The translations under genes and the position numbers were made by a program. A stretch of 64,000 bases of DNA from Campylobacterales bacterium (lineage in GTDB: Bacteria > Campylobacterota > Campylobacteria > Campylobacterales > Sulfurimonadaceae). Below are positions 35,076 through 40,855 of the stretch, one piece after another (within the stretch, counting starts at the first letter, position 1; every line of letters begins with the position of its first letter). The notes beneath the pieces were generated by a model. It worked only from the letters and a program-made list of their open reading frames with translations, was not told where the DNA came from and did no database searches. The stretch lies in contig JAJRQV010000009.1 in the NCBI GenBank assembly GCA_024280035.1, forward strand, positions 1-64,000, written 5' to 3'.

Positions 35076-35738
35076 TCATCTCCAAATCACTTCTAAATCT
35101 GAAGAGAGTTTTGAGATATTAAAACTACTTTTTGGACTTTTTACTCCCCCGATTGTCTTCACATTTTCCACAAATCTTTGTAGGTAATACCTCCCTTTAT
35201 AACCTTTATTCTTTAAGTTATTTATCATTTCATTAATATCATCTACATTTAGCAAATCATTGTGTAAGGTAGTTCGTACTTCAAAATAGATATTTTGTTT
35301 TACCAAGAGTTCTAATGAGTGTTCAAAAGAGGAAAAATTCTTATTCTTAGTGATTTCATAAAACTTCTCTAAGGGAGCCTTATAATCTAAGGCAATATAA
35401 TCTAAAAGTTTATTATCAAGAAGCTCTTTTATCACTTTAGGATGGGTTCCATTCGTGTCGAGCTTAATCTTATAACCTAAGTCTTTTATCTCTTTAGCAA
35501 AACCGACTAAATCCTCATATAAAGTCGCTTCTCCCCCTGAAAGTACAACTGCCTCCAGCCTACCCACACGTTTTTTCAAAAATTCCAAGGCAAAATCCAC
35601 TGACTTTGAACCTTTTGAAAAAACGATATCTCCATTGTAGCAGTATTCACAACGCATATTACACCCTCCAAACCAGATTATCGCAGACAAATGATCAGGA
35701 TAGTCTAATGTACTAAAGGGGGTAATATCATAAATCAT
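35076..35738 (-). CDS. nrdG: Anaerobic ribonucleotide reductase activating enzyme (radical SAM)
   Basis: A 220-residue radical SAM protein. The 4Fe-4S site is CNMRCEYC (CxxxCxxC) in WFGGCNMRCEYCYNG, followed by the SAM-binding VVLSGGEAT. Size and the PFSTLDYPDHLSAIIWFGG start match the NrdG2/activating-protein group, which makes the glycyl radical on NrdD. It follows the split glycyl-radical ORF by 11 bases and nrdD in the same direction, so its target is evident from context. Confidence 0.9.
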   Translation of the reverse strand: MIYDITPFSTLDYPDHLSAIIWFGGCNMRCEYCYNGDIVFSKGSKSVDFALEFLKKRVGRLEAVVLSGGEATLYEDLVGFAKEIKDLGYKIKLDTNGTHPKVIKELLDNKLLDYIALDYKAPLEKFYEITKNKNFSSFEHSLELLVKQNIYFEVRTTLHNDLLNVDDINEMINNLKNKGYKGRYYLQRFVENVKTIGGVKSPKSSFNISKLSSDLEVIWR

Positions 35739-35749
35739 AAGTAACTGAC

Positions 35750-35917
35750 TTAATCACTACAACGAGGCGACTCAACAAACTGCTTACGTTCACCATGCTC
35801 ACCTTTTTTACCAATATTAAAACTCTCTACTGGTCGGTGATAACCCATTACTCTTGTGTAAACAATACACTTAGCTCTTTGACTTTTAACTTTTAATAAT
35901 ATCTCTTGATTACTCAT
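35750..35917 (-). CDS. Separate glycyl-radical domain of anaerobic ribonucleotide reductase
   Basis: A 55-residue ORF missed by length filters. ATG 35917 has AGGA 7 bases upstream. The sequence YTRVMGYHRPVESFN followed by GKKGEHGERKQF matches the C-terminal end of fused NrdD proteins, where RVxGY holds the radical Gly (here Gly25) and GKxxExxxR follows. The NrdD chain next to it ends before this motif, right after its CPKC metal site. The ORF is in another frame from nrdD with an intact stop and SD between, so it is a separate cistron and not a frameshift product. I infer that it docks on NrdD and carries the radical, much as GrcA (YfiD) does for pyruvate formate-lyase. Confidence 0.82.
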   Translation of the reverse strand: MSNQEILLKVKSQRAKCIVYTRVMGYHRPVESFNIGKKGEHGERKQFVESPRCSD

Positions 35918-35928
35918 TTTATTTTCCT

Positions 35929-38058
35929 TTAGTTTCGTAGGGCTTCTTCACTCAAAGCCAAATTATCACGCTTGTAATTTTCAACAAGCTCCTCATCACA
36001 TTTTGGACAAAATTCATGCTCACCATTAAGATAACCATGTTGGTCACAAATTGAGAAAACAGGGGTCACAGTAATATACGGCAGTCTGTAGTTAGAAATA
36101 ACATTTTTCACTAACTTACGACACGCCTCAGCGGAACTTATCTTCTCTCTCATATAAAGGTGAAGTACAGTTCCTCCCGTGTATTTACACTGAAGTTCAT
36201 CTTGTAAGTCCAGCGCTTCAAAAGGATCATCCGTATGATTAGCAGGGATTTGAGATGAGTTGGTATAATAAATATTATCATCAAAACCAGCTTGCAATAT
36301 GTGGGGATAACGCTTTTTATCTTCTTTGGCAAACCTATAAGTAGTCCCTTCTGCCGGCGTAGCTTCAAGATTATAAAGATTTCCCGTAGCCTCTTGATAC
36401 TCCACCATACGAGAACGCATATGCTCTAAAATCTCAATAGCAAAAGATTCTCCTTTTTTATCCGTAATATAAAGTTTATTATCAAAAAAATTTCTTATCA
36501 TCTCGTTCATTCCATTAACACCAATGGTAGAAAAGTGGTTGTTAAAACCGGGAAGATAACGTGAGGTATAAGGAAAAAGCCCCCTATCATACATATCTTG
36601 AATAAAAACTCGTTTCTTTTCTAAGGTCTCTTTCGCCAGTTCCATCAAATGATCCACCTGTTCTAAAAGCGCTTTTTTATCTCCCTTGTAGATATAACCT
36701 AAACGTGCCATATTAATCGTAACCACCCCTATACTTCCTGTCATCTCTGCTGAACCAAAGAGTCCCCCTCCACGTTTAAGAAGTTCTCTTAAGTCTAACT
36801 GCAAACGACAACACATACTTCGTACGTGACCAGGTTTATATGCTTCAGGGTTTTCAACAAGTTTTCCATCAATCCCTCGTATATATTGAGACCCAATAAA
36901 ATTTTGAAAATAAGACGATCCTATTTTTGCTGAGTTTTCAAAAAGAAGGTCAGTGTTTTCACCATACCAATCAAAGTCTTCTGTAATATTTACCGTAGGA
37001 ATAGGAAAGGTAAAAGGCTGTCCTGTTTTATCCCCTTCCGTCATAATCTCATAAAATGCTCTGTTAATCACATTCATTTCTGCTTGAAAGTCTTTATACG
37101 TCATATTTGTAAAGTTTTCAAGCCCTCTCTTTTTTGCCTCAAGTTTTAAAGAAGGATCATCCAAGTCTAAAAACAGATGTTTCTGATTCCGTGTTGGAAT
37201 CTGATCTTTTAAGTCTGTTGGAACGGTCCAATCAATAGTAATATTAGTAAATGGAGACTGTCCCCAACGTGCAGGAACATTAAGGTTGTACACAAAAGAC
37301 CGAATTGCTTTTTTAGTCTCAGAATAAGAGAGTTTATCTTTAAAAAGGTAAGGTGCCAAGTAGGTATCAAACGAAGAGAAGGCTTGTGCCCCTGCCCATT
37401 CACTCTGTAAGATTCCCAAGAAGTTTGCCATCTGCCCAAGGGCTTCTCTGAGATGAGAAGGGGCTTCAGATTCCACACGACCACGTACCCCATTAAATCC
37501 TTCATCTAGAAGTACACGTAAGCTCCATCCTGCACAATAACCCGTTAAACAGTCTAAATCATGAATATGATAATCTCCATTTCTATGAGCATATCCCTCT
37601 TCTTTAGAATAAATTTTATCTAACCAATAATTTGCAATCACCTTACCTGCTGAGTTATTCACTAAACCTGCATTAGAATAGCCCGTATTAGAGTTAGCCT
37701 TAATGCGCCAATCTGTTCCATTAATATACTCTTCTACTGTTTGAACGGCATTAATGTAGGTAGTATCTTCATTAAACCCATGGGTATGCTCACGTTTCAT
37801 CTTATGCATCAAACGGTACAGCATAAAAGACTTCATTACTTCAAAATAACGTGCCTTATACAGCTCTTGTTCAATTAAATCTTGGATATCTTCTACCGCA
37901 GCTGCACGTTTGGATTTAAGTTTATCTATGACTCTAAAAAAGACAGACGTATCATAAGAGGTATTCTCACTCTTAAATGCTTTTTTAATGGCATCTTAAA
38001 TCTTATAAGGGGCAAACTCTTCACTCTGACCATTTCGCTTTAAAATTTGCTCTAACAT
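35929..38058 (-). CDS. nrdD: Anaerobic (class III) ribonucleotide reductase large chain, in-frame TAA at codon 21, lacking the glycyl loop
   Basis: 709 codons. From ATG 38058 the frame gives an ATP-cone start (LEQILKRNGQSEEFAPYKI), then TAA at codon 21 (37998-37996), then DAIKKAFKS and the rest of the cone and the reductase barrel without damage. Other ATP-cones have Glu, Gln or similar here, so a single G-to-T or C-to-T change explains the stop. Without readthrough, the first inner Met (37836) would lose the cone and its allosteric control. Reductase motifs include RSMCCRLQLDL and GSIGVVTINMARLGY. The C-terminus has a metal site (CDQHGYLNGEHEFCPKC) but no RVxGY radical loop, which lies in the next ORF. 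Confidence 0.88.
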
Positions 38059-38084
38059 TATTTTTCCTTGGCTTATATATCCGA

Positions 38085-38090
38085 AGTATA
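38085..38090 (-). promoter_or_regulatory. Possible -10 box for nrdD
   Basis: TATACT on the minus strand (38090-38085), 27 bases before the nrdD ATG and 10 bases from the proximal TGTCA pair, so bound regulator would overlap the -35 region. This is a weak prediction. Confidence 0.35.
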
Positions 38091-38100
38091 AAAAATAATT

Positions 38101-38116
38101 ATGTCACAAGATGTCA
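38101..38116 (-). promoter_or_regulatory. Tandem TGTCA direct repeat, candidate response-regulator site (proximal)
   Basis: ATGTCA at 38101 and again at 38111, exactly one helical turn apart, just upstream of the nrdD promoter. OmpR-type regulators bind such 10-base direct repeats. A lone TGTCA lies at 38145-38149. Confidence 0.55.
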
Positions 38117-38245
38117 ACTGAATTTAATGAATTTTGTTAGATATTGTCATAAGAGGATGTAGAGGTATATATCTTTAAACAGGTAGATAAATTTTGGGAA
38201 TGAACTACGCATATATACCCCACATAAGCAGTATAAGACCTTACC

Positions 38246-38261
38246 TTGTCAAACTGTGTCA
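38246..38261 (-). promoter_or_regulatory. Tandem TGTCA direct repeat, candidate response-regulator site (distal)
   Basis: TTGTCA at 38246 and GTGTCA at 38256, again with 10-base period and the same orientation as the proximal pair 145 bases away. It lies between the regulator gene and nrdD. Confidence 0.5.
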
Positions 38262-38305
38262 CCCTCTTTTATCAAATTAAAGATTTCAATAACACAAAGC
38301 CATTT

Positions 38306-38333
38306 TTTATAATAAATCTTTATTTATTATAAA
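38306..38333. repeat. AT-only inverted repeat at the regulator gene stop
   Basis: TTTATAATAAA (38306-38316) and TTTATTATAAA (38323-38333) are perfect reverse complements around six bases and include the regulator stop codon. No U tract follows on the minus strand, so it is at best a weak terminator or mRNA 3' end. Confidence 0.4.
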
Positions 38334-39006
38334 GAATATAACCCACACCATAAATACTTGCAATAGTATCTTCAGGAAGTTTTGGACGAAGACGTTTAAT
38401 CAAAGACGTAATCGAATTAGAGGAAAAATCACGTTCAGGTTGATCTTCATAAATATGGTTATAAATATCAATAGCAGAAACCGTTTGATTAGGATGTGAG
38501 CACATAAAGTCAAGTACTTTTTTCTCTTTCTCTTTAAGATCAACCTCATTCTCTTCATTAAAGAGAATTTTTCTTTTTTGATTCCAGTAAAAACCATTTT
38601 TCAAGGCTATATTGTCTGAATTTTTACGCAAATCTTCTACAATATTTAAGAGTAACTCTTTAAGCTCATCACTCTTTACAGGTTTAACAAGATAGGTGAC
38701 TAAATGCAGTTTAATCGCCTTAAACAGTTTCTCTTTTTCAGAATGTGCCGTGGTGATAATGATTTTTGTTGTTTTATCTTTTTCACGAATCTTTTCTATC
38801 ATCGACAAACCATCTAAATGCGGCATATTAATATCTGCAATAATAATGTTTGGTTTCTTATTTTCATACACAGACAAGGCACTTATCCCATCTCTAGCCA
38901 CATATACATGTTCAAAAAATATCTGAAGATATTCTGTCATAGAACTTAGTAACTGCTCTTCATCTTCAGCAATTAACACACTTATATCTTTTATTTTATT
39001 ATCCAT
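38320..39006 (-). CDS. OmpR/PhoB-type response regulator
   Basis: A 228-residue regulator. The receiver domain (about 8-120) has the acidic pocket AEDE (13-16), the phosphorylation site D58 in IIIADINMPHLDG and Lys near 107 (YLVKPVKSDE). The C-terminal winged helix (about 135-228) has CSHPNQTVSAIDIYNHIYE, RDFSSNSITSLIKRLR and IASIYGVGYIL, the trans_reg_C pattern. It overlaps the kinase gene by 8 bases. Its direct downstream neighbour is nrdD with tandem repeats in between, so I infer control of the anaerobic reductase. Confidence 0.9.
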   Translation of the reverse strand: MDNKIKDISVLIAEDEEQLLSSMTEYLQIFFEHVYVARDGISALSVYENKKPNIIIADINMPHLDGLSMIEKIREKDKTTKIIITTAHSEKEKLFKAIKLHLVTYLVKPVKSDELKELLLNIVEDLRKNSDNIALKNGFYWNQKRKILFNEENEVDLKEKEKKVLDFMCSHPNQTVSAIDIYNHIYEDQPERDFSSNSITSLIKRLRPKLPEDTIASIYGVGYILYNK

Positions 39007-40855
39007 TTATCTTCTCCATCTCTATACTAAACTTTGCACCACTGTTAACATTTTGAACACTTAACTTACCACTCATAGAATTTTCAATAATCATTTTAGA
39101 GATATACAGACCTAAACCTGTTCCCATAGACTTATGTTTTGTAGTAAAATAAGGCTCAAAAACCTTATGCAAGTTTTCTTCTTTTATTCCCCCTGCATTA
39201 TCTCGAATCTCTAAAATAACATTTTCATTATGTTCTATAATTTTAATTTCAATAAAAGCACCACTTACCCCTCTGTTTTTCAAGAGGTCTTTTGCATTGC
39301 TTAAGAGAGAAACTACTACTTGCGTATATTCATTAATAAAACCGTGTACATAAATTTCTCTCTTATCTTCAAAACGTATATCAAGGGCTTTAGGGTCAAC
39401 ACTAACACTAATAATCTCTATAGCATGTCGAACTGCCTCAGAAACACTAAAATTCTCTTTCTCTTTATTAGGACGATAAAAAGTCATAAAGTCATTAATC
39501 GTATTTGACATGTATTGAATATTAACTTCTACATCTTTTAACTTTATACCTAACTCTGTGGAAGCTAATATCTCTCGTGAGTTTTTCTCTTTTAAAACAC
39601 CTACAATAGAGTTTATAATCGCTAAAGGCTGTCTCCATTGATGGGCTATATTTCCAATCATCTCTCCCATGTCTGCCATCTTTGCTTTTTGAAAAAGAAG
39701 GGTTTCTTTCTCTTTTAACTCGGTTAAATCGATAACCGTGGTAATACGAACAGGAAGATTATCCCGATAAGAAGAGCGCCCACCTACTAAAGCAGGAAAG
39801 GCATTTCCATCATCTTTTAAAAGCCTAATTTCAAAAGGAGAAACCTGTTCTTGTTCAAGAGCCTTATTACACCTGCCCACAGAGTCACCACCCGTAATAT
39901 CAAGCAGTTTTAGTTTCAAGAACTCTTGTTTGGTATAACCAAAGATAAACTCTGCTGCGGCATTTAAGTCAATGATTTCTTGTTTTTCATTAGAAACAAT
40001 CACTGCCTCATGCATGGTGTCCATTAAAATCTGAAAATGACTTAAAGACTCTAAAAGGGCAATATCTTTTCGTTTAAGTTCATCAATCGTATTAATCAGA
40101 GCATCATGATACTCTTGCTCAATATAAAGACCACAATCCAATCCTTTCATTTGAGAAATTAGGTTAGCAATTCTCTCTTTTTCAATGATAGAGCCATGTT
40201 GGGGTGCGATAAGGTTTAAGTCTAACTTTTCTATCTTTGCAAGTGCATAATTAAAAATATCTTTACTAGGCATATACTCAGCATGAAACTGTCTTGCCTT
40301 ATAACAATAATCATCTTTTGCATAAAATTCCCATGACTCTGCTATTCCACCAAAAATATCTCCTGAAAAGAGAGTTTTTGTTTTAGGTTCATACGAAACA
40401 AAAGCACCAGGTGAATGACAATACGGGGTTGTATAAAATTCCAATTCTAAGTCCCCATCAATAAGTCTGTTCTCATTTTTATCTATGGCATAATAATCTG
40501 ATTTTATCATATAATGCTTTACCAAAGGAATCATACGCGAATGCGTAATGATACGTAAGTCATTACGGTTTATAAGTTTTTCCATTTCAGGAACAGACGC
40601 GGCTAAGTCAGGGTCTTGATGATGTAAAATAATATATTTAACATTTTTCATAGAAGAGATGGTATTAACTTTTTTAACTACCGCGTCAAATTCGAGCATA
40701 GAACCTGGGTCAACAAGTACACTAGCATCACCATTTTCTATAAAATAGGGATGACATTGAAAAGGATCATTTTCTAAATACATCCCCACCCAAAATAATT
40801 TGTCTGCTATTTCAATTGCTTTGCTAAAGTCCATTTCACTTCTGCTAAGGTTCAA
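38999..40855 (-). CDS. Hybrid sensor histidine kinase with diiron ODP (FprA-like metallo-beta-lactamase) input domain
   Basis: A 618-residue soluble kinase. Residues 1-250 are a metallo-beta-lactamase-fold ODP domain with ligands H79-x-D81-x-D83 (HQDPD), H147 (CHSPG), D166 (SGDIFGG) and H220 (PQHGS), the same spacing as the diiron site of FprA flavodiiron proteins but without a flavodoxin domain. A PAS domain follows (about 270-385), then the dimerisation/phosphoacceptor helix IGNIAHQWRQPLA (His near 405) and HATPase motifs NAGGIKEEN and GTGLGLYIS. ODP domains bind O2 or NO in other systems. The paired regulator overlaps it and anaerobic reductase genes follow. The start could also be ATG 40834. 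Confidence 0.88.
   Translation of the reverse strand: MNLSRSEMDFSKAIEIADKLFWVGMYLENDPFQCHPYFIENGDASVLVDPGSMLEFDAVVKKVNTISSMKNVKYIILHHQDPDLAASVPEMEKLINRNDLRIITHSRMIPLVKHYMIKSDYYAIDKNENRLIDGDLELEFYTTPYCHSPGAFVSYEPKTKTLFSGDIFGGIAESWEFYAKDDYCYKARQFHAEYMPSKDIFNYALAKIEKLDLNLIAPQHGSIIEKERIANLISQMKGLDCGLYIEQEYHDALINTIDELKRKDIALLESLSHFQILMDTMHEAVIVSNEKQEIIDLNAAAEFIFGYTKQEFLKLKLLDITGGDSVGRCNKALEQEQVSPFEIRLLKDDGNAFPALVGGRSSYRDNLPVRITTVIDLTELKEKETLLFQKAKMADMGEMIGNIAHQWRQPLAIINSIVGVLKEKNSREILASTELGIKLKDVEVNIQYMSNTINDFMTFYRPNKEKENFSVSEAVRHAIEIISVSVDPKALDIRFEDKREIYVHGFINEYTQVVVSLLSNAKDLLKNRGVSGAFIEIKIIEHNENVILEIRDNAGGIKEENLHKVFEPYFTTKHKSMGTGLGLYISKMIIENSMSGKLSVQNVNSGAKFSIEMEKING

Follow-up and report, generated by a model that had tools for sequence, protein, structure and literature searches.

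A candidate diiron sensor system predicted to control class III ribonucleotide reductase genes and a small RNA in Campylobacterota

The Campylobacterales DNA examined in this study (hereafter the window: the 64,000 nucleotides at positions 1 to 64,000, forward strand, of contig JAJRQV010000009.1, assembly GCA_024280035.1) encodes a histidine kinase and response regulator that probably constitute a cytoplasmic diiron sensor system for O2 (or NO), activating nrdD and a small RNA through a promoter box. Under the proposed mechanism, the ODP domain of the kinase would hold a diiron centre reacting with O2 (or NO), and the loss of O2 (or the binding of NO) would lead the kinase to phosphorylate the OmpR-type regulator encoded by the overlapping gene. 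The phosphorylated regulator would then bind tandem TGACA repeats with a 10-bp pitch, which stand where a -35 element would be, with an unvarying 11 bp between them and the -10 element, and would activate the nrdD transcript, with its split glycyl-radical ORF and nrdG2 behind, as well as one or two small structured RNAs lying between the regulator and nrdD. The proposal is built on sequence features, namely the protein domains, the invariant ligand residues, the gene overlap, the near-exclusive location of the box, the RNA-like folding in relatives and a fusion of the ODP domain to a winged helix. Relatives were collected by a genome scan that yielded 72 loci, mostly from Sulfurovum/Sulfurimonas-type Campylobacterota; the same scan found ODP proteins in Spirochaetes and other bacteria as well.

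The original prediction had placed the kinase and regulator at 38320-40855, and both open reading frames are found at the positions it gave:

38999..40855, minus strand: ODP-PAS-HisKA-HATPase sensor histidine kinase (ORF of 618 aa, TTG start; Pfam domains)
40193..40762, minus strand: ODP-family metallo-beta-lactamase-fold domain of the kinase, with predicted diiron site H79/D81/D83/H147/D166/Q219/H220 (PF19583, PDB homologues, conservation)
39719..40009, minus strand: PAS domain (PAS_9) of the kinase (Pfam)
39017..39670, minus strand: HisKA (H405 in AHQWRQPL) and HATPase_c catalytic core of the kinase (Pfam)
38320..39006, minus strand: OmpR/PhoB-type response regulator, with receiver (D58) and Trans_reg_C winged helix (ORF, Pfam)

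The Pfam domains of the kinase bear out the predicted fusion of a metallo-beta-lactamase-fold domain to PAS and kinase domains, in the order ODP (residues 32-221), PAS (283-379), HisKA (396-462) and HATPase_c (511-613). The ODP match is by far the strongest (PF19583, E=2.1e-58, 197.8 bits against a curated cut-off of 27.2), and HATPase_c is matched at 3e-16; the HisKA match of the window kinase (5.7e-6) lies 0.2 bits under the cut-off, which is exceeded in the relative at L014. The PAS domain is present in the window's close relatives, where 187 aa separate the ODP domain from the H-box, and missing from most other relatives, where this gap is about 67-81 aa. A PF19583 search of the window's genome returned this kinase as its sole ODP-family match, and no flavodoxin/FMN domain was found in the kinase by Pfam.

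Indexing of the translation recovered every ligand that had been predicted (H79-x-D81-x-D83, H147, D166 and H220), together with L84 and Q219. Alignment of the window with 70 relatives shows no substitution of H79, D81, D83, H147 or D166 (71/71), and Q219 and H220 are kept in 69 of 69; such invariance places the pattern far beyond chance. The kinase motif reads H-Q-D-P-D-L and not the flavodiiron H-x-E-x-D-H, position 84 is L or I throughout the alignment so that the third His of the flavodiiron-type motif 2 is absent, and the Gln at motif 5, which replaces the flavodiiron-type residue in all 69 sequences, is ODP-type. A previous study describes the ODP ligand set as unusual and the Gln as an ODP-specific replacement (PMC7785958). 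Among proteins of known structure, the closest are two sequences named oxygen-binding di-iron protein (6qrq/6qwo and 6qnm/6r9n, E about 1e-23 and 1e-21), with flavodiiron proteins scoring lower. These features suggest that the kinase binds a diiron centre and is a candidate O2/NO sensor. It is very improbable that the domain is instead a hydrolase-like metallo-beta-lactamase binding Zn or a small metabolite: the sequence does not reveal the identity of the metal, but the generic Lactamase_B family scores far below ODP, and the conserved HxDxD, L/I84 and Q219 match the ligand set reported for ODP proteins in the study cited above.

The regulator, composed of Response_reg and Trans_reg_C domains (Pfam), overlaps the kinase ORF by 8 bp and is followed by nrdD, as had been proposed; nrdD and nrdG2 lie on the same strand. 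A second layout was found in three genomes, in which ODP and Trans_reg_C are joined in a single 353-aa protein lacking both kinase and receiver:

L022 10001-11062, L023 2866-3927 and L024 9304-10365: one-component ODP-winged-helix fusion

Downstream of the fusion gene, L022 and L024 have the box and an RNA-like element, and the contig of L023 stops 23 bases past the gene. The fusion thus ties the ODP domain both to a DNA-binding domain and to the box, and its sequence describes a one-component version of the system. In other bacteria, ODP also appears as the input to GGDEF, GGDEF-EAL, SpoIIE and hybrid kinase proteins (L029, L055, L063, L067, L078, L080).

The nrdD genes downstream of the regulator are arranged on the same strand in the order nrdD, small glycyl-radical ORF, nrdG2:

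37837..38058, minus strand: N-terminal ATP-cone coding frame of nrdD, from the ATG at 38058 (in-frame TAA at 37996-37998)
35929..37836, minus strand: catalytic body of nrdD, class III ribonucleotide reductase (PRK08270, 1024 bits)
35750..35917, minus strand: 55-aa ORF of its own, carrying the glycyl-radical motif of NrdD (RVMGY)
35076..35738, minus strand: nrdG2 radical-SAM activase (TIGR02495, 2e-62)

A whole-genome search found one NrdD only. Its frame is broken at codon 21 by the TAA, where relatives have a sense codon and read through, and the annotated-type ORF starts at the ATG at 37836; the TAA may represent a real lesion, a restart at 37836 or an assembly error. The main nrdD ORF ends before the glycyl-radical motif in 35 of 35 nrdD loci (33 distinct genomes), and the separate small ORF was found in 30 of these, with or without the kinase, so that a split nrdD is apparently a fixed trait of the group. 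Since the split occurs whether or not a kinase is present, it says nothing about the kinase, and the co-occurrence of the two, which had been suggested as a source of evidence, proved uninformative. The RNA-like element and the ODP-winged-helix fusion had been missed by the original prediction, which also made no mention of the in-frame TAA or of the separate ORF for the glycyl-radical end.

That the kinase and nrdD would be neighbours in related genomes was borne out only in part. In addition to the window, nrdD follows the regulator in 8 related loci (L012, L013, L017, L036, L040, L041, L046 and L053), whereas in 30 of 70 loci the pair stands instead at the end of a nor-nir denitrification cluster, with a uroporphyrinogen-III methyltransferase (SUMT/nirE-like) gene overlapping the kinase start. 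These clusters encode a NirJ-like radical-SAM protein, two cytochrome-d1-domain proteins (NirS- and NirF-like), small cytochromes and a COX1-family (NorB-like) protein. Because the nor-nir end is commoner among relatives than the nrdD neighbourhood, the adjacency argument alone is weak. The ODP kinase is present in 14 of 71 family genomes, where it adjoins nrdD (G000, G007, G004, G020), lies close to nirS (G061, G025, G003, G039, G055, G053, G067, G059) or is near neither (G012, G002). NrdD was detected in 13 of the 14 kinase genomes and 19 of the 57 others (P=0.00006, phylogeny not corrected for), and NirS in 12 of 14 and 19 of 57, respectively (P=0.0006, likewise uncorrected for phylogeny). 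Kinase, NirS and NrdD are all missing from the remaining five genomes sampled from the window's genus.

A more direct link to nrdD comes from a strict promoter box, TGACA-N5-TGACA-N11-TATA(A/C)T, which occurs twice between the regulator and nrdD in the window:

38230..38261, minus strand: Box 1, TGACAcagttTGACA-N11-TATACT, predicted regulator-activated promoter of the small RNA
38085..38116, minus strand: Box 2, TGACAtcttgTGACA-N11-TATACT, predicted regulator-activated promoter of nrdD

About 27 nt separate the -10 element of Box 2 from the nrdD ATG at 38058. Within 1.07 Mb of related loci, TGACA-N5-TGACA was observed 29 times against 2.0 expected (first-order Markov model built on these loci), and the spacing to the -10 element was N11 in all 27 of the repeat copies that have one (27/27, with spacings of 8-14 allowed). 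The exact box was found 12 times in the 71 family genomes (reversed-pattern control: 1), with 3 further copies in 200 order-level genomes (control: 0), a set partly shared with the first, giving about 250 genomes together. Nine of these 15 boxes lie downstream of the orthologous regulator, five directly before nrdD and one elsewhere (G037). Where nrdD and the kinase are on different contigs (G012 and G002), nrdD still carries the box. The nrdD upstream regions of kinase-less genomes lack it in 18 of 19 cases, and no box was found at nrdD in seven nir-type genomes that have the kinase. The last result counts against the proposal, as do the broken nrdD frame of the window, the lack of an exact box at nor promoters and the weak folding of the window's own hairpin (both described below).

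Because the box stands both after the regulator and directly upstream of nrdD, including on separate contigs, the link to nrdD is better backed than by adjacency, and this operator evidence rescues the predicted control of nrdD despite the weak neighbour argument. Promoters activated by PhoB/OmpR-type regulators carry tandem direct repeats with helical pitch that replace the -35 element; as the repeats of the box occupy the same place, the direction of control is taken to be activation, with the phosphorylated regulator presumably binding the box. It is unlikely that the adjacency of nrdD is incidental, with the regulator controlling the small RNA only and the nrdD box belonging to another OmpR-type regulator. 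The one kinase-less exception, G018 (a 94%-complete assembly), has the box before nrdD with no detectable ODP kinase or orthologous regulator, so that the box may be used by a different regulator; there are paralogues of the OmpR type, at 33-37% identity, and similar imperfect repeats precede two porin-like genes of the window's genome. Exact boxes, on the other hand, are nearly confined to the regulator locus and nrdD, and almost no genome lacking the system has one.

Several other sites were considered. No exact box was found at nor/nir promoters; a regulator box there was rejected as a candidate, these promoters carrying instead a conserved FNR-like site, TTGAN6TCAA, whether or not the genome encodes the kinase. 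The region before the first nor gene holds an 11-bp-pitch TGACA pair in L035, L039, L044 and L047, and the FNR-like site together with a GTTTC-N5-GTTAC repeat in L161, L163, L164 and L166. Both patterns are confounded with phylogeny and are not claimed; the latter repeat, seen in some kinase-bearing genomes, was not found in the ten kinase-less genomes checked. The TGTCA-N4-TGTCA repeats of nir loci were discarded, as they lie inside the nirS coding sequence. In the window's own genome, TGACA-N5-TGACA is found at a distance of 55-132 bp upstream of two genes predicted to encode outer-membrane porins (L088 and L095; C71 and C72), with poor matches to a -10 element; these genes are possible further members of the regulon. 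The imperfect boxes of this genome, at porin-like and other genes, have one mismatch or a poor -10 element and are not claimed.

Most boxes beside the regulator, in the window and in relatives, are followed by a folding element, which in the window is as follows:

38157..38225, minus strand: predicted small RNA hairpin (ATGTGGGGTATATAT...ATATATACCTCTACAT; folding z-score -1.4, weak alone)

One large group of these elements combines an AGAGGUG/CACCUCU outer stem with an inner stem whose loop is rich in C (for example CUCCCCCCCCUUGUA), and a second group often contains GAUUCAAAGC. The ten sequences tested gave folding z-scores from +0.1 to -4.0. The inner-stem arms of six species are unlike in sequence, and pairing is 100% between the two arms of one species and 25-78% when arms of different species are combined; the arms were hand-picked from predicted folds, as MAFFT had misaligned the inner stem, and the pairing test therefore leans towards structure. 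Rfam gave no match at gathering score in 8 loci and none up to E 5 at positions 37700-38500 of the window. The element is predicted to be a small RNA. It could, with a rather low probability, be a leader, attenuator or small ORF and not a free small RNA, as most loci have no U-run terminator directly after the outer stem. Loci without nrdD, however, often have the next gene on the opposite strand, leaving nothing for a leader to lead into, and the order box-RNA-box-RNA-box-nrdD in L012, L013 and L017, where each of two tandem RNA-like elements has its own box, gives nrdD a promoter of its own.

The signal itself is somewhat more likely than not to be O2, which is favoured because the system is present in two genomes without NirS (G002 and G004) and because NrdD is O2-sensitive. 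It is possible, though doubtful, that the kinase responds instead to NO from denitrification, in which case the system would report nitrite reduction and adapt nrdD and the small RNA to nitrosative stress. Flavodiiron relatives reduce NO, one solved relative is annotated as a nitric oxide reductase, and both the overlap of the kinase with the SUMT/nirE-like gene in the 30 nor-nir loci and the frequency of NirS among kinase genomes would fit NO. However, the two genomes without NirS retain kinase, nrdD and box, the O2 sensitivity of the target fits O2, and the ODP protein studied in chemotaxis is described as an O2 sensor (PMC7666581).

The ODP family and two-component systems are already known. 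The ODP of Treponema denticola chemotaxis (PDB 6qnm/6r9n, 6qrq/6qwo) belongs to the same family and shares the metal-ligand pattern, including HQDPD and APQHG; it is a stand-alone protein feeding chemotaxis, whereas the domain described here is fused to a kinase or a winged helix and apparently controls transcription. Flavodiiron proteins (ROO, FprA, flavorubredoxin) share the fold and the order of the diiron motifs with the kinase domain, which differs in lacking a flavodoxin domain, in having HxDxD for HxExDH and a Gln before the last His, and in being a sensor module and not an oxidase. The box resembles PhoB/OmpR-type promoters in its repeats and differs from them in the 10-bp pitch of TGACA and the strict N11 to the -10 element. 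The open literature searched contained no description of an ODP kinase with targets, of the box, of the RNA or of the ODP-winged-helix fusion, and no diiron (ODP) transcription regulator with a known operator; the ODP papers found there concern chemotaxis. If the proposal is true, sulfur-oxidising Campylobacterota possess a sensor linking O2/NO status to the anaerobic supply of DNA precursors and to a small RNA, and how DNA binding is driven by a diiron site could be studied with the one-component fusion as a compact natural tool; the defined operator makes these claims directly testable.

The closest functional parallel is found in Firmicutes, where ResDE/SrrAB react to low O2 and to NO and regulate RoxS/RsaE (PMC4409812), and where srrAB mutants show altered nrdDG expression (PMC4956065). 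The likeness lies in a two-component system for low O2/NO, in nrdDG and in an NO-induced small RNA with C-rich regions, and it is one of wiring, not homology: the sensors are unrelated, with menaquinone redox proposed there and cytoplasmic diiron sensing proposed here, and the RNA-like element, having no Rfam match, is not homologous to RoxS/RsaE. The broadest reading, which we consider evenly balanced, is that a diiron O2/NO sensor controls expression directly through two interchangeable layouts, that it has a defined operator, targets a class III ribonucleotide reductase and is accompanied by small RNAs of a new family, many of which have C-rich loops, and that it forms a convergent counterpart of ResDE/SrrAB-RoxS in Campylobacterota.
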